A stretch of 33,627 nt of DNA from Ignavibacteriota bacterium (lineage in GTDB: Bacteria; Bacteroidota; Ignavibacteria; UBA10030). Below, piece by piece: positions 21,263 through 33,627 of the stretch. Where the stretch lies: NCBI GenBank assembly GCA_022616555.1, contig JAKEEG010000026.1, positions 1-33,627 of the forward strand, read 5' to 3'. Positions within the stretch are counted from its first letter, which is position 1. Each line of letters starts with the position of its first letter. The translations under genes were made by a program, and so were the position numbers. The notes beneath the pieces were generated by a model. The model saw only the letters and a list, made by a program, of their open reading frames with translations, did no database searches and had not been told where the DNA came from.

Positions 21263-21604
21263 GGCAGAATAAAAAGCCCACTGTACTGGCAGCGGCGGAC
21301 TTACACTGCAAGAATCCGCAGGGTCAACTTCCGGCTCGCGCACCGAGCTGGCGGTCCAACATAATCAATCCAGCAAGCAAACCCTAGAAAGTATGCTCCC
21401 TTTCTGCATGTTGACGTTCAGAATAAACAAAAGCTTAAATAATGCTGCAACTAGTATATTTTAATAGCTTTTGTGTGGAACTGAAATTCGACCTGAACCG
21501 ATTTGAACCGTTTTAATGTTCAAAAAATAAATACTATATTCAAGAGCAGTTTTTGAGTTGAAAATGATTCACACTTTTGTCAGTTGGACTGTGGTACGAG
21601 TACG
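21263..21604. other. Intergenic region ahead of the corrinoid activator gene
   Basis: Apart from the ferritin remnant at 21324-21383, no gene is visible. The AT-rich part 21420-21560 presumably holds the promoter for the activator operon. I looked for a cobalamin riboswitch (B12 box and its upstream partners) and did not find a convincing one. Confidence 0.4.
21324..21383 (-). pseudogene. Ferritin C-terminal remnant
   Basis: Read leftward, 19 codons plus TGA give GLLAGLIMLDRQLGARAGS, nearly the same as the end of the intact ferritin at 27941-28438 (GDAPAGLIMLDRQLGARAGE). Several codons differ synonymously, so this is an old paralogue and not a fresh copy. An in-frame TAG lies just before the match (21384-21386), and no further ferritin sequence is seen on either side. 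Confidence 0.8.
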
Positions 21605-23245
21605 ATGCTCTATTTCAATAACGAAAGCACAGAGGCTCCGGAGGGTGCATCGCTCTTTGAGTGTGCCGAATCGCTCGGCATTTACGTCCCCACCTCCTGC
21701 GTGAAGCAAGGAAAGTGTAGAGAGTGCATGGTGGAGGTAACAGAGGGGATGGACCACCTTACGCCTAAGGTACATCAAGAAAGTCACCTCACCGGGAATC
21801 TGCGCCTCTCGTGCCGGGCTCGGGTACTGAACGAATCCGGTACCATCCGATGCCATACGCTAAGACGAAGCAATATTAGAGTTGAACGTCATGCCTTGCA
21901 CCTGCCCGCGCGCCGGCAACTGACTGTCGACCCGGCAATCACTCGCAAGGATGGCAGTATTCTCTGCGACGAGCAGGAGATAGGCCGCGGGAATGGATCT
22001 CTCTACGGCATAGCGATGGACCTCGGCACTACAACGGTCGTGCTGCGGCTCATCAATTTGGAAACGGGCGAGATTGTCGCAGACTCGTCGTTTGAAAACC
22101 CGCAGCGCTTCGGCGGGTCGGACGTCATGTCCCGCATTCACTTCGATACGATGCACCGTGGGAAGCTGCTACAACGAACGCTCGCCGGGTACGTAAGCCA
22201 CGCCATCGAAAAAATGCCGGCCGACCCGAATGCCATCTACGAGATGGTGGTAGCGGGAAATTCCACCATGCGCGATCTTTTTTTCCGTCTTAATGTGTAC
22301 TCCATTGGCCAGAATCCGTATCAGTCCATTACCGAAATCGAAATGAAGGAAGGCAAACGCTCCACGACGAGCGTAACCACCACACCGAAGCGGTTGGCTC
22401 TTCCGCTGAATCCACAAGCGCGAGTGTACGGACTTCCCATTATCAGTGGACATGTGGGGGCAGATACATCCGCATGTATGATGGCCATTGACATTGCAAA
22501 CGAAGACCGCTTGGTTGCGATCATGGACATCGGAACCAATACGGAGCTCATCCTCGGTAACAAGCATAAAATTCTGGCGGCATCATGTCCGGCAGGTCCG
22601 GCGTTTGAAGGAGGAAAGATCTTCTGCGGGATGCCGGCGCTTCCCGGGGCAATCGAGCAGGTTGAGATTCAAGACAACGGTACGGTGAATACCCGCGTTA
22701 TCGGCGACGTGCCGTCCGAGGGTATCTGCGGCTCCGGCCTCGTGGATGTCCTGAGCGAGCTCATGAGAACCGGCCGCATGAATTCGCTCGGCCGCTTTGG
22801 GTATGAGGACAAAGAATTTATCTTAGATTCCAGCATCAACCCGCCGGTACAGTTGAACGAAAGCGACATCAACGAGCTGGCGCAAGCCAAAGGCGCGAAC
22901 GTCGCCGGGCTGCACATTATTTTCGAACGATACGGAGTGAGCTTCGATGACGTGGATCAATTTTATCTTGCCGGAGCGTTCGGAAGGCACATCAATATTC
23001 AATCAGCAAAACGAATAGGGCTGATACCGAACATCGACGACTCAAAAATTGTCCAGGTCGGCAATGCTTCTATTGAAGGGGCGAGCGCTGTGTTGATTTC
23101 CCGCTCGAGACGGGCTGAGCTTGAAGAACTGGTGAAGCGAGTGGAACACTGTAGACTGGAAACGCATCCGGATTTCTTTAATTATTTTGTCGAAGGATGC
23201 CAATTTCATCCGGTCGATTCCCTGAAACCTCATGCACACGGCTGA
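21605..23245 (+). CDS. RACo-type corrinoid activator: [2Fe-2S] ferredoxin plus ASKHA (DUF4445) protein
   Basis: A 546-residue protein of the reductive activator of corrinoid proteins family, which uses ATP and a low-potential electron to return inactive Co(II) corrinoid to Co(I). Residues 1-85 form a plant-type ferredoxin with cluster ligands Cys32, Cys38, Cys41 and Cys70. From about residue 134 comes the actin-like ASKHA ATPase: AMDLGTTTVVL, VVAGNSTMRDLF, IMDIGTNTELIL, SGLVDVLSELM and YLAGAFGRHIN. Start choice: ATG 21605 begins right at the ferredoxin strand LYFNNES; a TTG at 21584 would add seven residues. It overlaps the next gene, heads the rightward set, and faces genes for a corrinoid carrier and methyltransferases, the expected partners. 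Confidence 0.92.
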   Translation: MLYFNNESTEAPEGASLFECAESLGIYVPTSCVKQGKCRECMVEVTEGMDHLTPKVHQESHLTGNLRLSCRARVLNESGTIRCHTLRRSNIRVERHALHLPARRQLTVDPAITRKDGSILCDEQEIGRGNGSLYGIAMDLGTTTVVLRLINLETGEIVADSSFENPQRFGGSDVMSRIHFDTMHRGKLLQRTLAGYVSHAIEKMPADPNAIYEMVVAGNSTMRDLFFRLNVYSIGQNPYQSITEIEMKEGKRSTTSVTTTPKRLALPLNPQARVYGLPIISGHVGADTSACMMAIDIANEDRLVAIMDIGTNTELILGNKHKILAASCPAGPAFEGGKIFCGMPALPGAIEQVEIQDNGTVNTRVIGDVPSEGICGSGLVDVLSELMRTGRMNSLGRFGYEDKEFILDSSINPPVQLNESDINELAQAKGANVAGLHIIFERYGVSFDDVDQFYLAGAFGRHINIQSAKRIGLIPNIDDSKIVQVGNASIEGASAVLISRSRRAELEELVKRVEHCRLETHPDFFNYFVEGCQFHPVDSLKPHAHG

Positions 23246-24038
23246 TGACGAGATGACGTCATTTGAACTCTTCGATACCGCGCCGACTGTTGATGTTCGA
23301 GAAGCGGAGTATATGCGCTTGCTGGGCTACCCCCGAGGGTACACGCTTGAGGGCCGCGCGCAGGAGCTTGCTTCATGGGCACACAAGTGGTACCAGGAAC
23401 ATGGAAAGCCCTGGATCTACGCGCGGCAGGTGCAGGAAGTGGAATTCGATAAGAAAAGCGTCCGGGTAGCAGGAGCAACCTTTTCTCCGGGAAGGCTTGC
23501 AGAGAAAATGGTTCAGGCGCACGCGACCAGTGTTATGTTGGTTGCCGTCAGTACGGGGCCGGAATGCGAAGAGACGGCGCGCAGACTATGGGACGAGGGG
23601 AAACCGGACGAGTATTTTTTTCTTGAAATTTACGGCTCTGCGGTGGTTGAACAGCTTGTCGCCGCTGCTTCGTATCTACTGTGCGAGTGGGCAGACCAGC
23701 ATCACGCAGCAGTGTTGCCCCACTACAGCCCAGGATATCCCGGCTGGGGCATTACGGACCAGCAGGCACTGCTGAGGCTCATCGTTGAAAAGCCGGGGTT
23801 ATTGCTGAATGAACGAATCAGCGCTTTTGATACCGGGATGCTCAAACCAAAAAAATCGATGCTCGCGGTTTTTGGCATCACCTATCGTCCCGAGCTTGTT
23901 CCGAAACTGACAGAGTTGATTCCTTGTGAAAACTGTTCACTGCTAGGCTGCCAGTACCGTCGCGCGCCGCAGAAATACTCACTGCCCCGGCTCGAGCAGG
24001 TACGCAACTGGCAACAAAAGAGAAAAACAGAAGTATAG
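23232..24038 (+). CDS. MetH reactivation domain-like protein with C-terminal Cys cluster
   Basis: A 268-residue stand-alone protein resembling the AdoMet-binding reactivation domain of cobalamin-dependent methionine synthase. The signature segment is HYSPGYPGWGITDQQAL (residues 164-180), matching the RPAPGYP-type motif of that domain; an ARQVQEVEF-type strand and the LLCEWADQHH helix precede it. At the C-terminus Cys232, Cys235 and Cys240 (PCENCSLLGCQYRR) form a cluster not found in MetH that could bind a metal or Fe-S cluster. The start at 23232 overlaps the activator stop; ATG 23253 is an alternative seven bases after that stop. The role is probably docking with, or AdoMet-dependent remethylation of, the separate corrinoid protein encoded downstream on the other strand. 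Confidence 0.82.
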   Translation: MHTADDEMTSFELFDTAPTVDVREAEYMRLLGYPRGYTLEGRAQELASWAHKWYQEHGKPWIYARQVQEVEFDKKSVRVAGATFSPGRLAEKMVQAHATSVMLVAVSTGPECEETARRLWDEGKPDEYFFLEIYGSAVVEQLVAAASYLLCEWADQHHAAVLPHYSPGYPGWGITDQQALLRLIVEKPGLLLNERISAFDTGMLKPKKSMLAVFGITYRPELVPKLTELIPCENCSLLGCQYRRAPQKYSLPRLEQVRNWQQKRKTEV

Positions 24039-24069
24039 ATTAATCGTAACGAAAGGACGTTACTATATT

Positions 24070-24396
24070 ATGGTCAAACTTTGTGACGTGAACCAAGCCG
24101 CACGAGAAAAGCTGCCACCGACCTTCACCGACAAATCCGGCATCGGCGTGCATTATATCGATGCATTCATCAAGCCGATGAACAAGAGCCTGGAAGACGG
24201 TACGCGCGTGGCGTGCAAGCGAAAGGGGTTGAAGATTACGTTCACCGTAGGAACGAAGAAGGGCGAAGGATTGATGCGCAGGCTCGATGTGAGCAAAGAC
24301 CCTATTGTGATGCTGCAGGCTGCACTGCAGGAGGCAGCAAAAGCGGCGGGCGTGGAACTACAAGTTACTGAGAGTGAGATTTTACTCACGCCGTAA
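24070..24396 (+). CDS. Unrecognised 108-residue protein in the corrinoid cassette
   Basis: I do not recognise this protein. It is soluble, without signal or membrane segment, and has a mixed alpha/beta look: KLPPTFTDKSGIGVHYIDAF, then a positively charged strand region (RVACKRKGLKITFTVGTKKGEG), a helix (DPIVMLQAALQEAAKAAGVEL) and a final strand. Two Cys (residues 5 and 49) are not arranged as a metal site. The start has a purine-rich site (GAAAGGA) at a slightly long distance. It lies 31 bases after the reactivation-like gene on the same strand, so it is probably co-transcribed. A role in corrinoid activation or as a subunit is a guess from position. Confidence 0.7.
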   Translation: MVKLCDVNQAAREKLPPTFTDKSGIGVHYIDAFIKPMNKSLEDGTRVACKRKGLKITFTVGTKKGEGLMRRLDVSKDPIVMLQAALQEAAKAAGVELQVTESEILLTP

Positions 24397-24447
24397 AGCA
24401 CCGGTCGCTTATGCCGTTTCAAATAAATAAGTGACAGTAACCACCCC

Positions 24448-24485
24448 GTCCCGACAACCCTTCGACAAGCTCAGGGCGTCGGGAC
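24448..24485. repeat. Inverted repeat between the convergent corrinoid operons
   Basis: Outer arms GTCCCGAC and GTCGGGAC enclose an inner stem around CCCTTCGACAAGCTCAGGG, a short repeat type common in intergenic DNA of many bacteria. With no T-run it is not a classical terminator, though it may end transcripts from 24396. Nothing else was recognised in 24397-24626. Confidence 0.6.
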
Positions 24486-24626
24486 ACTCCTCGTTAGTTA
24501 GGAGGGGAAAAAGCGCTGGGCGCTCTGTTCCGCCATCGACCCACGAATAGACACCAACTCTACGCCAAAGAGAAACGCTGAAGGGTTATAAAGTTTTTCG
24601 CAGAGTGGCTGCATGGCCTAGCTGAA

Positions 24627-25562
24627 TCACTTGACCAATGACGCCGATTTCTGTTGATGAGTTGCGTTAAATTGGTCGACCATCTTGCGTATGGCTCGAG
24701 TATGCGCAGGCGTGCTACCACAACAGGAGCCGACGATATTACCGCCTGCTTCGAGGAGGTCCGTTACCGAGGCGGCCATTTCCTCCGGCAACTGTTTATA
24801 AACAGCCTTCCCTCCTTCTAGCACGGGAAGCCCGGCGTTCGGTTGTCCCATAGTAGGGAGATTACAGGATTCGCGATAGAGCTGCACGACCTTCACGGCC
24901 GCGGCCATGTCTACCCCTGTCCCACAATTCAGGGCGACAATGTGCGCCCCTCTTTCCTGAATGAATTCAGCCGCCTGCCCCGGTAGCACACCCATCATCG
25001 TCACATAAAATGACTTGTCGGCGGACAGGTCGTACGCCAACGACGCGATAATACTCGGCGCGCCGGCGGCTTTCGCCGCATCGATCGCGATACCGATTTC
25101 ATCCAGCGAGGTCTGGGTCTCTATCATGATGGCATCCACTCCAGCCTCAACAAGCGCGGCGCATTGTTCCTCGTACGCGGAGCGGGCTTCAGCCTGGGAC
25201 ATGTCGCCGTACGGTTCCAGGATCGCTCCCAGCGGCCCGACGTCGCCCAAGACATAACCAACTTTGTTGCTGAACGCTTCGCGCGCAATCCGAACTGACG
25301 CCTGATTGATGGCCCGCACTTCATCGCCGTGGCCATGGCGCGTAAGCATCGTTCTGCTGCCGCCGAAAGTATTGGTGATGAGACAATCCGCACCCGCGTC
25401 GACATATTCTTTTTGGATTGCCAGAACGCGCTCGGAATGCGTCAGGTTCCAGTGCTCGCCACAACCGCCCAGCTCTAGGCCTGCGGCCATGAGCTGCGTG
25501 CCCATCGCCCCGTCGCAAACGAGTCGTCGTTCGCGCACAATGTCATGAAGGAGTTTTTTCAT
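24627..25562 (-). CDS. Homocysteine S-methyltransferase (MetH module 1 / BHMT-like)
   Basis: A 311-residue single-domain enzyme that would pass a methyl group to homocysteine, giving methionine. The N-terminus VCDGAMGTQLMAAG (residues 15-28) is the family hallmark. Zinc ligands are visible as Cys213 (ALNCGTG) and the Cys280-Cys281 pair (GSCCGSTPAHTRAI). The length matches the isolated N-terminal module of MetH; no folate, cobalamin or reactivation module is attached, and these parts occur as separate neighbouring genes or are missing. Start choice: ATG 25562 (MKKLLHD) begins at the family's normal N-terminus; longer reading would run back into a repeat. It is the last gene of the leftward set, separated from the PF13769-like gene by a MITE-like element. 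Confidence 0.9.
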   Translation of the reverse strand: MKKLLHDIVRERRLVCDGAMGTQLMAAGLELGGCGEHWNLTHSERVLAIQKEYVDAGADCLITNTFGGSRTMLTRHGHGDEVRAINQASVRIAREAFSNKVGYVLGDVGPLGAILEPYGDMSQAEARSAYEEQCAALVEAGVDAIMIETQTSLDEIGIAIDAAKAAGAPSIIASLAYDLSADKSFYVTMMGVLPGQAAEFIQERGAHIVALNCGTGVDMAAAVKVVQLYRESCNLPTMGQPNAGLPVLEGGKAVYKQLPEEMAASVTDLLEAGGNIVGSCCGSTPAHTRAIRKMVDQFNATHQQKSASLVK

Positions 25563-25580
25563 TGGGATTAATAGAACCCA

Positions 25581-25685
25581 TCTCAAAAATAGTACTCTGT
25601 CATGCCCGCGGATTTTAGGCGGGCATCCACCCGCTGGATTCCCGCTAGAAGCATGCGGGAATGACATAAGGGGGGATTTTTGAGA
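25581..25685 (+). repeat. MITE-like dispersed repeat, copy 2
   Basis: About 105 bases from TCTCAAAAAT to ATTTTTGAGA, perfect 10-base inverted ends. Inside are TGTCATGCCCGC, GCGGGCATCCACC and TGGATTCCCG ... GCGGGAATGACA, the same two-hairpin core as copy 1 (15877-16004) but in the opposite orientation. It fills most of the 133-base gap between the PF13769-like and homocysteine methyltransferase genes. Confidence 0.8.
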
Positions 25686-25695
25686 CTGCTTTTAG

Positions 25696-25950
25696 TTAAG
25701 GAAACTGTTTCTCCAATTCTTGTTTGACAGCTTGCGCCACCTCTTCAGCAGTGCCCTCTCGTTCTTGCTCTTCGCTCCAGTTCCACTCGTTCAGATACGC
25801 GTCTGTCTCTGTTAAGCCCTGCGCCTGGGCCGATTGGTCGATGCGCGCAGTGAAACGCTGCGCCAATTCCAATTTTACCTCATCGACGTCGTCCCACGCT
25901 TTGACCTCTGAGGGAATTTTCTGCCAATACAGAATTTGATATGTCGCCAT
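25696..25950 (-). CDS. Small PF13769-like ("virulence factor") protein
   Basis: An 84-residue acidic soluble protein. It opens YQILYWQKIPSEVKA and continues with AQRFTARIDQSAQAQGLTETDAYLNEWNW and an acidic helical tail (GTAEEVAQAVKQELEKQF). This pattern matches, from memory, short proteins labelled virulence factor (PF13769) in alphaproteobacteria, which begin with a VYWRDIP-type strand and contain DAYLAEW. The label has no demonstrated meaning here. It sits between the corrinoid carrier (23 bases away) and the homocysteine methyltransferase, so a structural or assembly role in corrinoid methyl transfer is more plausible than virulence. The family call is moderate; the function is unknown. 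Confidence 0.65.
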   Translation of the reverse strand: MATYQILYWQKIPSEVKAWDDVDEVKLELAQRFTARIDQSAQAQGLTETDAYLNEWNWSEEQEREGTAEEVAQAVKQELEKQFP

Positions 25951-25973
25951 GCCTACAGAGTCTCCAGAGTGCG

Positions 25974-26615
25974 TTATTTTTTGTCTACCAAACGAAGAAA
26001 GAGATCGACAGCGTTGGAAGCATCTGACCCGTAGCCGTCGGCGCCGATTTCATCGGCAAACGATTGGCTGATGGGCGCGCCGCCGATGGCCGTCTTAATG
26101 TGGCCTAAGCCTTTTTCTTTGAATCCGTCAACCACGACTTTCATGTACGTCATCGTCGTTGTGAGGAGGGCGCTCATGCCGACAATATCCGGCTTCACGT
26201 TATCCACGGCAGCGAGGAATTTGTCGAGCGACTGGTCTACGCCGATATCGTGCACTTTGAAGCCGGCGCCTTCAGCCATCATGCAAACGAGGTTCTTGCC
26301 GATGTCGTGCAGGTCTCCGCGAACCGTCCCCATCAGGAGAACGCCCGCGGGCTTCACCGCGGAATCTTTCGCCGTCAACAGGGGCTTGAGCACACCCATA
26401 CCCGCTTTCATCGCACGCGCGGCAATCAACACCTCGGGCACATAGAGAATATTGTATTTAAAATCTTCTCCCACTACGCTCATCCCTGCAATAAGTCCCT
26501 CCGTCAAGATCTGTTGCGCAGTCTGGCCTTCGGCAAGCGCGTCTTTCGTCATCTGTTCAACCTCTTTGGCCTTGCCTTCGTAGAGGTATTGATTCATTAG
26601 CGCATAATCTGGCAT
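25974..26615 (-). CDS. Corrinoid (methylcobamide) carrier protein, MtbC/MtaC-like
   Basis: A 213-residue carrier with the two-domain build of methanogen and acetogen corrinoid proteins and of the MetH cobalamin module. Residues 1-85 form the helical cap (LTEGLIAGMSVVGEDFKYNILYVPEVLIAARAM). Residues 88-213 form the B12-binding Rossmann domain with the cobalt-ligating His103 in the DxHxxG motif (GDLHDIGKNLV, 100-110), GMSALLTTT and TAIGGAPIS. The cobamide cycles between Co(I) and methyl-Co(III), carrying methyl from a donor-specific enzyme to an acceptor enzyme. It lies 21 bases after the UroD-family methyltransferase and upstream of the homocysteine methyltransferase, matching donor and acceptor sides. 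Confidence 0.93.
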   Translation of the reverse strand: MPDYALMNQYLYEGKAKEVEQMTKDALAEGQTAQQILTEGLIAGMSVVGEDFKYNILYVPEVLIAARAMKAGMGVLKPLLTAKDSAVKPAGVLLMGTVRGDLHDIGKNLVCMMAEGAGFKVHDIGVDQSLDKFLAAVDNVKPDIVGMSALLTTTMTYMKVVVDGFKEKGLGHIKTAIGGAPISQSFADEIGADGYGSDASNAVDLFLRLVDKK

Positions 26616-26636
26616 ATGTCTGTTTTTCTCCGTCTG

Positions 26637-27683
26637 CTAACGTTTAGAATTAAATTCGTCCAATGCTTTCTGCATAGCCAAAATGTTTTCGCGCGGCATT
26701 CCCGGGCTTGTCCCACCGCCGACGGACAGGATAATGCCTTCGCCTCCGCTTTTCTCCAGCACATCGAGCGTGGCCTCCCGAACCTCTTCCGGTGTGCCGC
26801 GAACGCCAATTTCAAGCGGATTGACATTTCCCATCAGGCACATCCGCTTGCCGATACGCTCCTTGACTTCCGCAATGTCCGTTTGCTTACCCCAATTCAA
26901 CACGTTGAAACCGCAATCGGGCAGGTAGTCCAAGCATGCATTGACATCTGCATCATTGTGGTAAATTTTGACCCAGTCTTTCGGGAATGCGTCACAAATT
27001 TTCTTGAGGTACGGATGCGCGAATTCCTTATAATGCTCCTCGTTGATGAACCCGACGATGTCATCAAGAATGAAAATGCCCTCGACGGTATCGCCCATCG
27101 CCTTGTGCTGGGCTTTCAGCCAGTCGATGATGAGATTGGTGGAAAGGTTAATTAACTTATGCGCCCACTCCGGCTTCTCAACAATGTCGATCATAAAATC
27201 CGTTGTGTTTCGCACGAAGCCCGCCGTGCACAGAGGTCCGCGTGAGGTGACAAGCGGGAGAATTTCCCCGGTGTCGAGGATGCTCTGCCTGTGCATGCGC
27301 ATTCGGTGTAGCGTCATCCCCATGAAGGCGTCGGCCTCGACCTCGTACTCGGGGAAATTGTCGATGTCCTCGATATGGTAGAGCGTGTGGTACTCGCTGG
27401 GCGTGTTGTTCTGCCAGAATTTAATTTTTGAGCCCAGTGCGGACGGCTCTGCCGCCATGCCGTATTCCATCCACCACGACGGGACAAAAATGATATCGGG
27501 AAACTCGTTGTGGATCTTCAGATTGGATTCGAACCACAACTTCGGGTCGAGAAAATAATCCATATGGTTGAGACCGAGGTATCCCGGTATCCACGGGCTG
27601 TCGATAATCAACGCCATCGGGATTTTGTCGAGCTTCTCAAGCCGAGCCGCCTTTTTAAACGTTTCCCATTGTTCGGGTCTCAT
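26637..27683 (-). CDS. UroD-family methyltransferase, probable methyl donor:corrinoid enzyme
   Basis: A 348-residue TIM-barrel protein of the uroporphyrinogen decarboxylase superfamily, in the branch of corrinoid methyltransferases and O-demethylases (MtaA, MtbA, MtvB-like), not heme synthesis. In thiol methyltransferases MtaA/MtbA the zinc site is HxC plus a distant Cys. Here the first motif is His242-Asn-Asp244 (VKIYHNDADVN) and the expected late Cys is in a Gly run (SVGGGTSPGMPRENILAM, residues 320-337). The enzyme thus lacks both Cys ligands, so it is unlikely to methylate coenzyme M or a thiol. It more likely takes methyl from an unknown substrate to the adjacent corrinoid protein. The start has AAGGAACGGAG upstream. 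First gene of the leftward set. Confidence 0.85.
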   Translation of the reverse strand: MRPEQWETFKKAARLEKLDKIPMALIIDSPWIPGYLGLNHMDYFLDPKLWFESNLKIHNEFPDIIFVPSWWMEYGMAAEPSALGSKIKFWQNNTPSEYHTLYHIEDIDNFPEYEVEADAFMGMTLHRMRMHRQSILDTGEILPLVTSRGPLCTAGFVRNTTDFMIDIVEKPEWAHKLINLSTNLIIDWLKAQHKAMGDTVEGIFILDDIVGFINEEHYKEFAHPYLKKICDAFPKDWVKIYHNDADVNACLDYLPDCGFNVLNWGKQTDIAEVKERIGKRMCLMGNVNPLEIGVRGTPEEVREATLDVLEKSGGEGIILSVGGGTSPGMPRENILAMQKALDEFNSKR

Positions 27684-28978: not shown

Positions 28979-29815
28979 TTGGACAACATTACTTTCTTGA
29001 TTATCAGCCTCATCAATATCCTCTTGCCATTGCTCTATGCCATCACCACATGGTTCTATGGCAAGGCTTTCTTTAGAGACGATGAAAAAGGGAAAAAATT
29101 CAAAACTCCCTTCCTTGCGATCACCGTTCTTACACATCTGGCTTATCTCATCATTCGGACGGCTGCGTTCGACCACCCTCCGATCACCACGGTTGCCGAG
29201 ATTATGTCGCTTATCGCGTTCTCAACCGGCGCTGCTTACTTGGTCATTGAACGATTAACGAAAGTAAAGAACACCGGCTACTTTATTCTCGTTCTTGCTT
29301 TTTTCTTCCAGCTGGGGTCATCCGTATTTATCCAGGACTTAATTGAAGTAAACCCGGTGCTGCGAAGTAAACTGCTCGGCATCCATGTCTCCACCGCGTT
29401 ATTGGGATATACGGCCATTACGATTTCGGCGGTGTACGGGTTCCTCTATTTAATGTTGTATCACAACATTAAATCGAAACGCTTCGGAGTCATTTATGCG
29501 AAGCTGCCGAACCTTGAGTCCCTTGAACGCATGAGTTTCCTTTCGACCCTGCTCGGATTTCTGTTTATCACCATCGCCATCGTGATCGGTTTGGTGTGGC
29601 TGCCGAAGGCGTACGAGAGCTTTTCTTACTTCGATGCAAAACTGCTCGGCACAATGGCTGTCTGGTTCCTGTACGGCGCAGGCTTGCTGGCAAACAAAAT
29701 GCTGGGATGGCAAGGACGGAAAATTATGGTATTGTCGCTCGCTGCTTTCGTCCTTTCCTTTTTTTCGTTAACGGCAATTAATATGTTCCTGACCAGCTTC
29801 CATAGTTTCTACTGA
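28979..29815 (+). CDS. hemX: HemX/CcsA-like cytochrome c assembly-type membrane protein
   Basis: A 278-residue protein with about eight hydrophobic helices, related to CcsA/ResC/HemX. The family-type segment GIHVSTALLGYTAITISAVYG carries a conserved His that in CcsA relatives helps bind heme. A second helix pair is preceded by DHPPITTVAEIMSLIAF. The WWD motif of true CcsA is not seen, which favours HemX. In Bacillus, HemX lowers glutamyl-tRNA reductase levels; here the gene is directly fused by a TGATG overlap to hemA, fitting a similar role. Start choice: the only reasonable start is TTG at 28979, since a stop (TAA) lies four codons upstream and the first internal ATG is too late. This is the first gene of the heme cluster. 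Confidence 0.82.
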   Translation: MDNITFLIISLINILLPLLYAITTWFYGKAFFRDDEKGKKFKTPFLAITVLTHLAYLIIRTAAFDHPPITTVAEIMSLIAFSTGAAYLVIERLTKVKNTGYFILVLAFFFQLGSSVFIQDLIEVNPVLRSKLLGIHVSTALLGYTAITISAVYGFLYLMLYHNIKSKRFGVIYAKLPNLESLERMSFLSTLLGFLFITIAIVIGLVWLPKAYESFSYFDAKLLGTMAVWFLYGAGLLANKMLGWQGRKIMVLSLAAFVLSFFSLTAINMFLTSFHSFY

Positions 29816-31125
29816 TGGGTAATCGAGACGACTATATGAATGTGATTGTGCTGGGAATTAATCATCGGACGGCGCCTCTGGAAGTGCGCGAGAAACTCTG
29901 GTTCTCCTCCGAAGAAATGTCGACTGTCTTACCCCTTGTTCAAGAACGCTGGTTCACAGAGTGCTTCATGGTTTCAACGTGTAATCGCACCGAAATCTGC
30001 GGCGTTCCATCGACTACGAACGGAAATCTTCCAAGAATTGACAGCCTCGGGCAGTATCTAATCGACTCAAAATCCGCCACGGGCCAAATACAACAACGGC
30101 ATTTGTATCTGCTCAGGTCCGCGACAGCTGTGAACCATTTTTTCAAAGTTGCTTCCGGCATTGATTCGATGATTGTCGGGGATTTTCAAATTGTGAACCA
30201 AATCAAAGAAGGATTTAAGCTCGCGCAGGAAAAAGGAACTGTAGGCCCTGTCTTGAATCGGCTGGTGCAATCCGCATACCATGCGAGTAAACGTGTTCGC
30301 AATGAATCCCGCATTGGCGAGGGGGCCGTTTCGGTCAGCTATGCGGCGGTTGAGCTTGCCACGAAAATTTTCGCAGACTTCTCGAAAAAGTCCGCTCTCT
30401 TGATCGGAGCAGGGGAAACCGGTGAATTAACTGCACGCCACCTCGCGGCAAAGGGCATTGGGAAGCTCTGGATCGCCAACCGAACGTATTCTAAAGCAGA
30501 GCAGCTGACACAATCATTAGGCGGAACTGCCGTAGAATTCAACCGGCTCAATGAAGCAATAGCCGCAGTGGACATCATCATCACTTCTGTTGAATCTCCC
30601 CAGGCAATTATTACCGCTCCACAACTCTCGCACACCATGAAGGAACGTTCGCACAAGCCTCTCTGTATTATCGATATCGGCGTGCCTCGGAACGTCGACC
30701 CTGCCGCCAACGCGATTGAGAATATATTTCTGTACGATGTTGACGCTCTTTCCAACGTGGTTGATCAAAACCTGAAAAAGCGTGAATCTGAAATTCCCAA
30801 AGTGAATCCCATATTGTTGGAGGAGTTGAAAGAGTTCCATGAGTGGTACTCTGCGTTAGACGTCAGCCCGACGATAGCCGACCTGTATACGCATTTCGAG
30901 GAGATCAGGAACAGCGAAGTCGCAAAGCACCTCAACCGTTTTTCCACCCAGAACGACAAGGAACTGCTGGACCTCGTGACAAAGCGCATCATGAAGAAGC
31001 TTCTGCACATCCCAACCACGATGTTGAAAAACGGGCACGACGAACCTGGCGAATTGAAATATAAAAAGATTCATCTTCTGCGGGCACTTTTTGGCTTGAA
31101 TAAGAATGAACGTAAGGATACATGA
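29815..31125 (+). CDS. hemA: Glutamyl-tRNA reductase
   Basis: A 436-residue enzyme that reduces glutamate on its tRNA to glutamate-1-semialdehyde with NADPH, the first step of C5 tetrapyrrole synthesis. Visible are GINHRTAPLEVREKL, the nucleophile Cys56 in VSTCNRTEICG, SMIVGDFQIVNQIKEGF (Asp where many homologues have Glu), the NADPH loop LLIGAGETGELTARHLA and a C-terminal helical dimer region. The start at 29815 overlaps the hemX stop (TGATG); ATG 29836 gives a more typical N-terminus (MNVIVLGINH) and is equally possible. Its stop overlaps the hemC start (ATGA). hemL (semialdehyde aminomutase) and hemB are not in this window. Confidence 0.96.
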   Translation: MGNRDDYMNVIVLGINHRTAPLEVREKLWFSSEEMSTVLPLVQERWFTECFMVSTCNRTEICGVPSTTNGNLPRIDSLGQYLIDSKSATGQIQQRHLYLLRSATAVNHFFKVASGIDSMIVGDFQIVNQIKEGFKLAQEKGTVGPVLNRLVQSAYHASKRVRNESRIGEGAVSVSYAAVELATKIFADFSKKSALLIGAGETGELTARHLAAKGIGKLWIANRTYSKAEQLTQSLGGTAVEFNRLNEAIAAVDIIITSVESPQAIITAPQLSHTMKERSHKPLCIIDIGVPRNVDPAANAIENIFLYDVDALSNVVDQNLKKRESEIPKVNPILLEELKEFHEWYSALDVSPTIADLYTHFEEIRNSEVAKHLNRFSTQNDKELLDLVTKRIMKKLLHIPTTMLKNGHDEPGELKYKKIHLLRALFGLNKNERKDT

Positions 31126-32102
31126 AGAGAACGAAACTTGTGATCGGATCCCGTGGGAGCGAACTCGCCAGGTGGCAAACCGATTGGTTAGCCGGCCAAC
31201 TCAGACGGCTCCACCCTACAGTCAGCGTAGAAGTAGTCCTTATTAAGACGACGGGCGACAAGATTCTTGATTCTCCCCTATCAAAAATTGGGGGCAAGGG
31301 GCTGTTTACGAAGGAAATAGAGAAAGCGTTACTCGATGGAACAATCGACCTTGCGGTCCACAGTTTGAAAGACCTGCCAACGGTAATCCCGGAAGGTCTC
31401 ACCATCGGTGCGGTGACGGAACGGGAAGACGTGCGCGATGTGTTTATCTCGCACCCGGCGAAGAAGTATTCATCGTTCAAAAGCGTTCCAGTGCACGGAA
31501 TAATAGCAACTGGGAGCCTGCGCAGGAGGTGTCAACTTCTGCACCATCGGCCCGACCTTACCATTGTGGACCTCCGGGGCAACTTGCGCACGCGGCGCGA
31601 GAAGCTCAGCGATTCGGACTGGGATGGGATGATACTTGCGCGAGCCGGTTTGTTGCGCCTCGGGTGGACCGAACTCATCAGCGAAATTTTTGAGCCCGAG
31701 TACATGCTACCTGCCGTTGGGCAAGGTGCGTTGGGCGTGGAAATACGAGACAATGACAAAGAGCTTCAGGCGTTGCTGGCACCGGTGCATCATCACGCAA
31801 CAGCGCAGGCGACATCCGGAGAACGAGCGCTGCTGAGAGAGCTTGAGGGCGGCTGCCAAATTCCCATCGGAACGTTTGGAACGATAGCAAACCAGACATT
31901 TCAACTCCATGCTATGGTGGGCAGCCTGGACGGCACAACTGTCGTCCGCGGCTTTACGCAGGGCCCAGCCACTGAGGCTGAGGAACTTGGCAAGCAGCTT
32001 GCGCACGACCTTGTTGCGAGAGGCGCCGGGAAAATTCTTGAGGAAATACGAAATGCAGAAACAACACCGCGTAGTTCAGACGCAACAAGCACCGATGTCT
32101 AA
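31122..32102 (+). CDS. hemC: Porphobilinogen deaminase (hydroxymethylbilane synthase)
   Basis: A 326-residue cytosolic enzyme linking four porphobilinogens into hydroxymethylbilane. Motifs: GSRGSELARWQ, IKTTGDKI, KGLFTKEIEKALLDGTIDLAVHSLKDLPT with catalytic Asp84, RRRCQLLHHRPDL, and the dipyrromethane cofactor attachment Cys245 in LEGGCQIPIG. The C-terminus is a little longer than usual, with a Thr/Ser-rich tail, and overlaps the start of hemD. The start overlaps the hemA stop by four bases. Confidence 0.96.
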   Translation: MKRTKLVIGSRGSELARWQTDWLAGQLRRLHPTVSVEVVLIKTTGDKILDSPLSKIGGKGLFTKEIEKALLDGTIDLAVHSLKDLPTVIPEGLTIGAVTEREDVRDVFISHPAKKYSSFKSVPVHGIIATGSLRRRCQLLHHRPDLTIVDLRGNLRTRREKLSDSDWDGMILARAGLLRLGWTELISEIFEPEYMLPAVGQGALGVEIRDNDKELQALLAPVHHHATAQATSGERALLRELEGGCQIPIGTFGTIANQTFQLHAMVGSLDGTTVVRGFTQGPATEAEELGKQLAHDLVARGAGKILEEIRNAETTPRSSDATSTDV

Positions 32103-32880
32103 CGTAGGCGCGGGGTGTCCGCTATCGGGAAAGACTATCCTCGTCACCCGCCAGCGCGAGCAAGCCACGAAGCTCGTCGAGTTGTTGAAGCAGAATGGCG
32201 CAGAAGTTGTTCTGTTTCCGACAATCGAGATTATCCCGCCCGATAATTGGGACATGTGTGATAACGCGCTGACAACAATCAGTATGTACGACGGTATTAT
32301 TTTTACCAGTGCAAATGCCGTGCGGTATTTCATGAGTCGCACCGTTGAAATTCACAAGGACAGTAACGCAGCATTAGGCAAGAAAAGTATTTTTGCCGTG
32401 GGCAAAAAAACGCAGGAGGCGGTGGAAAATTATGGCTTGCATGCCACCGTCCTTGAAGGGACATACGACAGCCGGACGCTCGGAAAGCAACTCTCACAAC
32501 TGGAACTCAATGGAAAGCGTTTTTTGTTTCCCAGAGGAAGTTTGGCGCGCGCGGAATTCCTTTCCGCGCTCAGAGAACAAGGCGCTGTCGTCGATGAAGT
32601 GATTGTGTATCGCACACAACTGCCATTATCGATAGATAGTAAACCTGTTGAAGAACTATTAAAGAAAAACGGAATCGACATGGTGTTGTTCTTCAGCCCT
32701 TCCAGTATTACAAATTTTTTAAGCGTGATTCCGCGCGACCTGCTGACGACTGCTCGTATAGCTGCAATCGGCCGCACAACGGAGGAAGCGGCGCAAGCCG
32801 TGAAGCTACGCGTAGACCTTGTTGCCGATGAGCCAACGACGGAGCATCTTGTGACATCGATTATGCAATTTTATGAGTAG
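32095..32880 (+). CDS. hemD: Uroporphyrinogen-III synthase
   Basis: A 261-residue two-lobed enzyme that closes and inverts ring D of hydroxymethylbilane. The family is poorly conserved, but [69 protein letters not shown] and [13 protein letters not shown] are typical, including the conserved Ser/Thr positions after the strands. ATG 32095 overlaps the hemC stop by eight bases; ATG 32053 would add 14 residues. hemE follows 25 bases downstream. Confidence 0.92.
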
Positions 32881-32905
32881 GCAGACCGCAACACAACCTA
32901 CACTT

Positions 32906-33627
32906 ATGAAAGCACCCGCGTTGCAGAATGATGTATTTCTGCGTGCGTGCAAGCGCAAAGACGTTGAGCGCACGCCCGTCTGGTTTATGCGGCAGGCAGG
33001 CAGGTACTTGCCCGAGTACCGCGCAGTGCGCGAGAAAGTCGATTTCCTAACGCTTTGCAAAACTCCCGACCTCGCCGCCGAAGTCACTATACAACCCGTT
33101 GATTTAATCGGTGTGGATGCGGCTATTATTTTTTCTGACATCCTTGTTATCCCGGAAGCGATGGGGATGACACTCATCGTAGAGGAAGGCAAAGGAGGAC
33201 CCCGCTTTCCTTCACCTATACGCTCGAAGCAAGAAATCAACGCGTTGGCAGTCCCGGACCCTTCTGAGCGGCTGAAATTTGTCATGGACGCAATCAGACT
33301 CACCAAAAAGGAATTAGCAGGGAGAGTGCCTCTGATCGGCTTTGCCGGTTCCCCATGGACGCTTGCCACATACATGGTTGAAGGCAAAGGCTCAAAAGAT
33401 TTTCGCCACGCAAAAGAATTCATGTATTCTACACCGCGAGAGATGCACACATTGCTCGATAAACTCGCCCGATCTGTCGCCGCGTACCTCAACGCGCAGC
33501 TCGAAGCTGGTGCCGACGCCATACAGATATTTGACACGTGGGGCGGCATACTCGCGCAGGAAGAATTCGAAGAATTCTCCCTGCGCTACATCGGGCAAAT
33601 TCTGTCGTTGCTCAAAACGAACGGCGC
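32906..33627 (+). CDS. hemE: Uroporphyrinogen decarboxylase, 3' end cut by window edge
   Basis: The true heme-pathway decarboxylase, which removes four carboxyl groups from uroporphyrinogen III. The frame runs from ATG 32906 without a stop to the end of the window, 240 codons of about 345. Signature segments are present: the first family signature [16 protein letters not shown] with the substrate-binding Arg pair, [15 protein letters not shown] with the catalytic Asp, and the second signature [16 protein letters not shown], followed by QIFDTWGG. It is clearly distinct from the UroD-like methyltransferase at 26637-27683, which lacks these motifs. It ends the visible heme cluster. Confidence 0.96.

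Follow-up and report, generated by a model that had tools for sequence, protein, structure and literature searches.

The locus and its genes

This article concerns a cassette of seven genes at positions 21605 to 27683 of contig JAKEEG010000026.1 (GenBank assembly GCA_022616555.1) from an Ignavibacteriota bacterium; the whole stretch of DNA that was analysed, 33,627 nucleotides long, is called the window below. An initial annotation, made from the sequence alone, described the genes as two convergent sets encoding a methionine synthase in pieces, with the folate module of MetH replaced by a donor enzyme of the UroD family that perhaps takes its methyl group from some methylated compound. The seven components named there were borne out. 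All are intact open reading frames, roughly at the positions given beforehand; Pfam directly supports the family assignment of five of the seven proteins, and that of U268 follows from fold (Table 1).

Table 1. Cassette genes and one repeat, with positions in the window and the basis of each assignment
Feature	Position	Strand	Basis
RACo, RACo/RamA-type corrinoid reductive activase	21605..23245	+	PF14574 RACo_C_ter 249.7 bits, PF17651 Raco_middle 126.7, Fer2 33.4
U268, stand-alone relative (by predicted fold) of the MetH activation (AdoMet-binding) domain, 268 amino acids	23232..24038	+	AlphaFold/Foldseek match to 1j6r
U108, conserved cassette protein of 108 amino acids, role unassigned	24070..24396	+	in 46/80 named loci
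HMT, single-domain homocysteine S-methyltransferase	24627..25562	-	PF02574 S-methyl_trans 203.8 bits; zinc-cysteine motifs NCG, GSCCG
Dispersed repeat, inverted-repeat-like, between PF13769 gene and HMT	25563..25690, approximate	.	23 further own-genome matches of its translation
PF13769-family small protein, role unassigned	25696..25950	-	Virulence_fact PF13769 58.4 bits; in 53/80 named loci
CP, corrinoid-binding methyl carrier	25974..26615	-	PF02310 B12-binding 87.9, PF02607 B12-binding_2 65 bits; DxHxxG motif
UroD, predicted corrinoid O-demethylase of the UroD family	26637..27683	-	PF01208 URO-D 142.7 bits; alignment of 14

The three domains of RACo, one of them a 2Fe-2S ferredoxin domain, are those expected of RACo/RamA activases; it also matches AcsV and Rama_corrin_act, two NCBIfam models of narrower scope, but below cut-off, and an alternative TTG start lies at 21584. 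The DxHxxG motif of CP reads DLHDIG at residue 101. In the alignment of 14 UroD sequences, H242-N243-D244 and G322-G324 are invariant. The UroD of locus L105 was excluded from this alignment: its gene (L105:9405-10436) has an in-frame TGA, due either to a sequencing error or to decay.

The homocysteine methyltransferase is indeed a single-domain protein, as annotated, but the first 35 codons of its reading frame belong to a repeat. The frame extends to 25667, and the whole of it, searched against the organism's own genome, gave 26 matches, 23 of which cover its first residues only, and 22 of those stop no later than residue 38. Because this part is a dispersed repeat, we regard about the first 35 codons as a false N-terminus, and HMT probably starts at residue 36, an ATG at 25562.

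By sequence, U268 matches no Pfam family, and searches of the U268 and U108 sequences against solved structures returned nothing useful. The AlphaFold model of U268 (pLDDT 81.9), however, matches TM0269 (1j6r), the MetH reactivation protein of Thermotoga maritima, with a Foldseek E-value of 1e-10 and a TM-score of 0.83 over the target, and all 19 Foldseek matches below 0.001 come from methionine synthase entries containing the activation domain. A distant homologue, U248, found in the sister cassette of locus L032, scores 37.6 bits against PF02965, the activation domain of MetH (cut-off 25), and aligns with the 268-residue profile with an hhalign probability of 97.3%; the direct profile alignment of U268 with the activation domain of the organism's own MetH is weak (10.9%). 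Judged by its modelled fold, U268 is a relative of the MetH activation domain. Eight of 15 aligned U268 homologues (L119, L124, L125, L127, L146, L150, L160 and L174) carry a further C-terminal domain of about 150 amino acids with conserved cysteines (TTC, GCxC, SRxHKW). It has no Pfam match in the two homologues tried, and it is absent from the window protein, which ends at 24038.

U108 is modelled confidently (pLDDT 89.1). Neither U108 nor two of its homologues has a Pfam match, and its model has no Foldseek match under E 0.001; the best result of a second fold comparison was Z 3.7 over 49 residues with a root-mean-square deviation of 3.2. A literature search on PF13769 or homocysteine returned matches that were all about homocysteine.

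Conservation of the cassette

A profile search of contigs with the UroD alignment gave at least 591 pattern matches, of which at least 568 are relatives; 80 loci were retained, and these are the named loci of this article. By record title they come from Ignavibacteria, Verrucomicrobia, Acidobacteria, KSB1, Gemmatimonadota, Phycisphaerae and others. Many are cut by contig ends, and 53 of the 80 have at least 7 kb downstream of UroD. Gene presence was scored by tblastn with reference proteins. This replaced a clustering of neighbouring open reading frames, in which a UroD cluster had emerged for only 57 of 83 loci, most likely owing to longer antisense frames that took precedence. Alignments were ignored if they covered less than 30% of the query (35% for the clade II stretches and 60% for the distance correlation described below).

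All seven genes are present in 29 of the 80 named loci, and in 25 of these 29 they lie on one strand, which argues that the two convergent sets of the window are one system, as had been proposed. The bare one-strand order UroD-CP-PF13769-RACo-U268-HMT-U108 is found in 15 of the 29, ten others have one strand with another order or with folate genes, and four have convergent halves like those in the window. On plasmid 1 of Gemmatirosa kalamazoonensis KBS708 the genes SDR-UxuA-UroD-CP-PF13769-RACo-U268-HMT-U108 stand in a row. UroD is alone in 13 of the 80 loci, and among the 53 with sufficient downstream sequence CP is without a match in the stretch in 12 and HMT in 13. Pairwise protein distances across 37 seven-gene loci (a different cut, of 85 including the window) are correlated with r between 0.60 and 0.90; not one of these 21 values was reached in 500 permutations, shared host ancestry being ignored. 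HMT is the least tightly coupled, with r 0.60 to UroD. The seven genes belong together as one system, and a homocysteine enzyme is a usual partner in it.

We also examined 391 genomes drawn evenly from the class of the window genome (the class genomes; G000 is the organism's own). The donor enzymes fall into clade I, with a close UroD, and clade II, with a diverged UroD of 32-37% identity, which occurs in 35 of the 391. In the fetched clade II stretches (n=35), CP and HMT are each present in 20 and U248 in 18; 16 have all three. Nor is the cassette absent from near relatives: of 31 other members of the family, four have a close UroD (88-91%) with adjoining cassette genes, and nine more have a diverged one.

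Several neighbours deserve a mention. An amidohydrolase of family PF01979 (L171:9844-11124 and 10 other named loci) accompanies MTHFR and a pterin-binding methyltransferase in many loci. Near the cassette of G022 a regulator of MerR type with B12-binding domain follows UxaC (L113:6607-7500), and control linked to B12 or light is possible there. In the window itself, genes for CcsB, HemA, HemC and HemE lie at 28979-33627, the true HemE being 5 kb from UroD.

The metal site of the donor enzyme

UroD-family S-methyltransferases are described as binding zinc through His-Cys-Cys, one or both cysteines being substituted in O-type enzymes (PMC10418091). With six duplicates and one short match excluded, H-x-D and S-V/L-GGG are found in all 85 distinct clade I sequences, H-x-D and SCGGG in all 35 distinct clade II sequences, and H-x-C in none of the 120. 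Having H-x-D rather than the H-x-C of the S type, the donor enzyme looks like an O-type enzyme. Since CdmB and the Moorella O-demethylase are described as lacking zinc (PMC13222342), it is uncertain whether zinc is the metal here.

Twelve clade II loci have a second UroD-family gene, UroD2 (for example L033:6007-7011, with 11 further loci that carry it in the stretch of the diverged cassette). UroD2 has the S-type motifs H-x-C and GCD in 12 of 12 cases and, from these residues, is likely a thiol methyltransferase.

Co-occurrence with alpha-glucuronidase genes

A cassette of this kind sits amid hemicellulose genes in four relatives of the window's family. GH10, GH115 and GH43 immediately precede UroD in G023; GH43 precedes it in G022, whose contig begins there, and an esterase-like gene and the glucuronate isomerase UxaC follow the cassette; in G030 and G017 a GH10 gene lies a few kb before UroD. 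We therefore tested whether UroD and these glycosidases occur in the same genomes, with cut-offs of E 1e-40 for UroD and E 1e-30 for GH115, GH67 and GH10. Among the 391 class genomes UroD was found in 45, GH115 in 43, GH67 in 36 and GH10 in 59.

UroD and GH115 are both present in 40 genomes and both absent from 343; five have UroD only (the organism's own, G000, and G006, G026, G058 and G131) and three GH115 only (G007, G351 and G373, each in at least 400 contigs), a Fisher p of 2e-45 with kinship ignored. Counted by genus (n=189), 24 have both, one, the organism's own, has UroD only and one GH115 only. The corresponding numbers of genomes with both, UroD only and the glycosidase only are 31, 14 and 5 for GH67, and 42, 3 and 17 for GH10. 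GH10 is present in all 43 GH115 genomes; within the 59 GH10 genomes UroD occurs in 40 of 43 with GH115 versus 2 of 16 without it (p 5e-9). UroD thus follows GH115 inside the GH10 genomes, and the idea that it is simply a marker of xylan degraders was rejected on this control. In 25 genomes UroD and GH115 are on one contig, no more than 10 kb apart in 20 of them. All nine class relatives whose UroD is 84-91% identical to that of the window have GH115, which favours the same role for the window cassette.

The association is also seen outside the class. Of 50 hand-picked genomes behind the named loci, which their record titles place mostly in other phyla (that of L134 reads Ignavibacteriaceae), 38 have GH115, 40 have GH67 and 44 have either. 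The Acidobacteriota among them, by title, have GH115 in 15 of 20 cases (one of them weak, with stops). For comparison, GH115 was present in 12 of 227 genomes drawn from the phylum to which G417 (titled Acidobacterium) belongs; at least two of these 12 carry UroD. In the stretches of the 80 named loci themselves we found GH115 in 10, GH67 in 16, and UxuA in 10, while four have an MFS transporter resembling the L029 one. In 31 of the 80 the stretch holds one or more of six glucuronoxylan-type genes, a count made without a random-locus control. The label ExuT is our own assignment to a protein that matches MFS_1; its best NCBIfam model, a D-galactonate transporter, is below cut-off.

Presentation of the hypothesis

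In our opinion, the seven genes probably make up one corrinoid system which removes the methyl group of 4-O-methyl-glucuronate and passes it via the carrier to homocysteine. From the co-occurrence of UroD with GH115 we predict that the donor, for which the initial annotation gave only some methylated compound, is 4-O-methyl-glucuronate. The scheme that follows, with its reactions, substrate, direction and partner contacts, is what we infer from the gene content, conservation, linkage, metal-site residues and co-occurrence observed.

Alpha-glucuronidases of families GH115 and GH67 would free 4-O-methyl-D-glucuronate, a side group of plant glucuronoxylan. UroD would then transfer the methyl group of this compound, or of a uronic-acid derivative, to Co(I)-CP, giving glucuronate and methyl-Co(III)-CP; the exact uronate may be the free acid, an aldouronic acid or a later intermediate. 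The glucuronate would enter the normal uxaC/uxuA route (UxaC is present in the organism's own genome), while HMT would use methyl-CP and homocysteine to form methionine and regenerate Co(I)-CP. Carrier oxidised to Co(II) would be returned to Co(I) by RACo, driven by ATP, together with the MetH-type reactivator U268. In some relatives methyl groups could also go to folate via a pterin-binding methyltransferase and MTHFR, and in L027 a PurU-like neighbour of UroD points to release as formate. Two regular members of the cassette, U108 and the PF13769 protein, are assigned no role in this scheme.

There are several points that weigh against this hypothesis. The first concerns the organism itself: its genome gave no GH115, GH67 or GH10 match at E 1e-30, and no xylan genes were seen in the window. 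Hence its cassette would depend on uptake of free methyl-uronate or on another hydrolase, or else its role has changed. Secondly, the link to homocysteine is not universal. Among the 53 named loci whose sequence continues for at least 7 kb downstream of UroD, 40 have HMT, and it was found in the fetched stretches of 9 of 10 clade I versus 20 of 35 clade II genomes; many diverged relatives have no homocysteine gene nearby. Thirdly, alignment to 4ay7 places the clade II cysteine two residues ahead of the canonical third ligand, and the clade II site may be His-Asp-Cys. Further, one methyl group per sugar is, by our own reasoning, more than is needed for methionine during growth on the sugar. A second sink is therefore likely, and folate genes that could provide one are near the cassette in a minority of the named loci. 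Finally, the leaving group of a plain alkyl methyl ether departs less readily than that of an aryl ether.

Alternative explanations

The same machine might have folate as its main acceptor, HMT only skimming off methyl groups for methionine. We consider this unlikely, though it has to be taken seriously. MTHFR is near the cassette in 17 of the 80 named loci and a pterin-binding methyltransferase in 15, and in L027 a PurU-like protein of the formyl-transferase family (ACT and Formyl_trans_N; L027:7773-8660) stands directly before UroD. Yet neither folate gene is in the stretch of 19 of the 29 seven-gene loci, and none is among the seven window proteins (no search covered a separate folate enzyme in the rest of the genome). 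The claim that the folate module has been replaced thus holds for the seven genes as such, and has to be qualified for the loci with folate genes close by.

The methyl group might instead come from an aromatic methoxyl group of lignin fragments or ferulate, the xylan genes being neighbours only because lignin and xylan occur together. Indeed, the encoding together of a PF01208 methyltransferase, a carrier and a RACo activase is the layout of the three-component O-demethylases Odm, Vdm and Mtv and of chloromethane CdmBCA, which likewise consist of a UroD-family methyltransferase, a carrier and an ATP-dependent activase (PMC13222342), and the metal site is not of S type. According to the same source, the second methyltransferase of those systems passes the methyl group to folate and their substrates are aryl methyl ethers or haloalkanes, whereas the cassette is linked to a methyltransferase of homocysteine type and its substrate is predicted from linkage and co-occurrence. 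An aromatic donor is improbable in our view, since UroD tracks GH115 within the GH10 genomes and the glucuronate genes UxaC and UxuA are among the named neighbours; no aromatic pathway was met among the scanned representatives, although none was searched for.

A methyl-sulfur or methyl-selenium system is a very improbable reading. It would resemble the type 1 mlp clusters, which are described with a UroD/MtaA-like enzyme, a carrier and a Ram protein and without a folate methylase in the cluster (PMC10418091), and the cassette does combine an MtaA/MtbA-like UroD enzyme with carrier and activase. The described Mlps, however, have His-Cys-Cys and at least two of them are required, while the cassette has His-x-Asp and one UroD enzyme. 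No sulfur or selenium gene is among the named neighbours, none having been searched for, and we rejected this candidate on the metal site.

It is scarcely credible that the organism has no methionine synthase other than this cassette, split in pieces. Separate genes of one system do encode the homocysteine, B12 and reactivation modules, and this part of the original proposal stands. A search of the genome, however, found a complete MetH of 1212 amino acids with homocysteine, pterin, B12 and activation domains, and the seven lack a folate module; a fusion of homocysteine methyltransferase with MTHFR is also encoded. The initial annotation had named a complete MetH, combined with absence of the cassette from relatives, as grounds for refutation; the MetH is there, but the cassette does occur in relatives. 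With CP as query at E 1e-5, the organism's genome gave two matches only, CP itself and MetH. The reading as sole synthase is contradicted by the complete MetH and was rejected, and the cassette is an extra route of methyl input. There is practically no chance that UroD is a duplicated uroporphyrinogen decarboxylase of the haem pathway in an accidental neighbourhood: haem genes do lie 2-6 kb away and UroD weakly matches the hemE model TIGR01464 of NCBIfam, but its 62.1 bits are far below the cut-off of 302.95, and the true HemE from 32873 reaches 321.3 although cut by the window end, so that this candidate was rejected.

Comparison with known systems

The corrinoid demethylation system proposed here shares with MetH the homocysteine domain with its zinc cysteines, the B12 domains and, by fold, the activation domain. 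Pfam finds no folate-binding module PF00809 among the seven proteins, and the UroD-type donor enzyme occupies its place, as the initial annotation had it. The methionine synthase of T. maritima with its separate reactivation protein TM0269 offers a parallel, since 1q7m, which we take to be TM0268, is the best solved-structure match of HMT, as 1j6r is that of U268. The T. maritima synthase includes a folate module, unlike the seven cassette genes, and no UroD donor enzyme is known to accompany it.

Ruegeria pomeroyi and Phaeobacter inhibens have MtgBCDE, a split methionine synthase in which the carrier, the homocysteine enzyme and an activase of Ram type are likewise separate, and one carrier serves both the methyl-donor enzyme and homocysteine (PMC12478193, PMC5764234); in the cassette such sharing is proposed, and the genes concerned are linked. 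As far as those sources describe it, the donor enzyme there belongs to pfam06253 (MttB-like) and acts on glycine betaine, whereas ours is a PF01208 (UroD) protein; the pterin module is essential there and outside the seven here; the helper is DUF1638 there, and a MetH-type reactivator, the PF13769 protein and U108 here; metH is absent from those bacteria and present in the organism of the window. Two elements of our hypothesis are already known, namely UroD-type O-demethylases for aryl ethers (PMC13222342) and, in Roseobacters, a carrier shared by demethylase and methionine synthesis with a pfam06253 donor (PMC12478193, PMC5764234, PMC12366255). The folate-independent core synthases (PMC7857596) are described as resembling truncated MetE (PMC12478193) and differ from the cassette.

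Implications of the hypothesis

Among the papers listed in searches of the open-access literature, judged by their titles and abstract openings and with subscription papers mostly outside, we found none on a corrinoid enzyme that removes the methyl group of 4-O-methyl-glucuronate, and none that ties a UroD donor, a carrier, HMT and a MetH-type reactivator to alpha-glucuronidase. We would give about even chances to the wider claim that many phyla share a B12-dependent demethylase which needs no oxygen, acts on an unactivated sugar methyl ether, that of 4-O-methyl-glucuronate from glucuronoxylan, and sends the methyl group straight to homocysteine, so that xylan breakdown is tied to methionine without folate.

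Plant xylan regularly bears 4-O-methyl-glucuronic acid as a side group, and the methyl ether of that acid therefore represents a large store of one-carbon units. The hypothesis can be tested directly in Gemmatirosa kalamazoonensis KBS708, where an unbroken row of all seven genes follows UxuA. If true, it would explain how such bacteria handle a common methyl ether of the plant cell wall, it would identify the genes responsible and provide a marker for metagenomes, and sugar ethers would join the substrates of corrinoid O-demethylases. One-carbon supply would then be coupled directly to polysaccharide breakdown.

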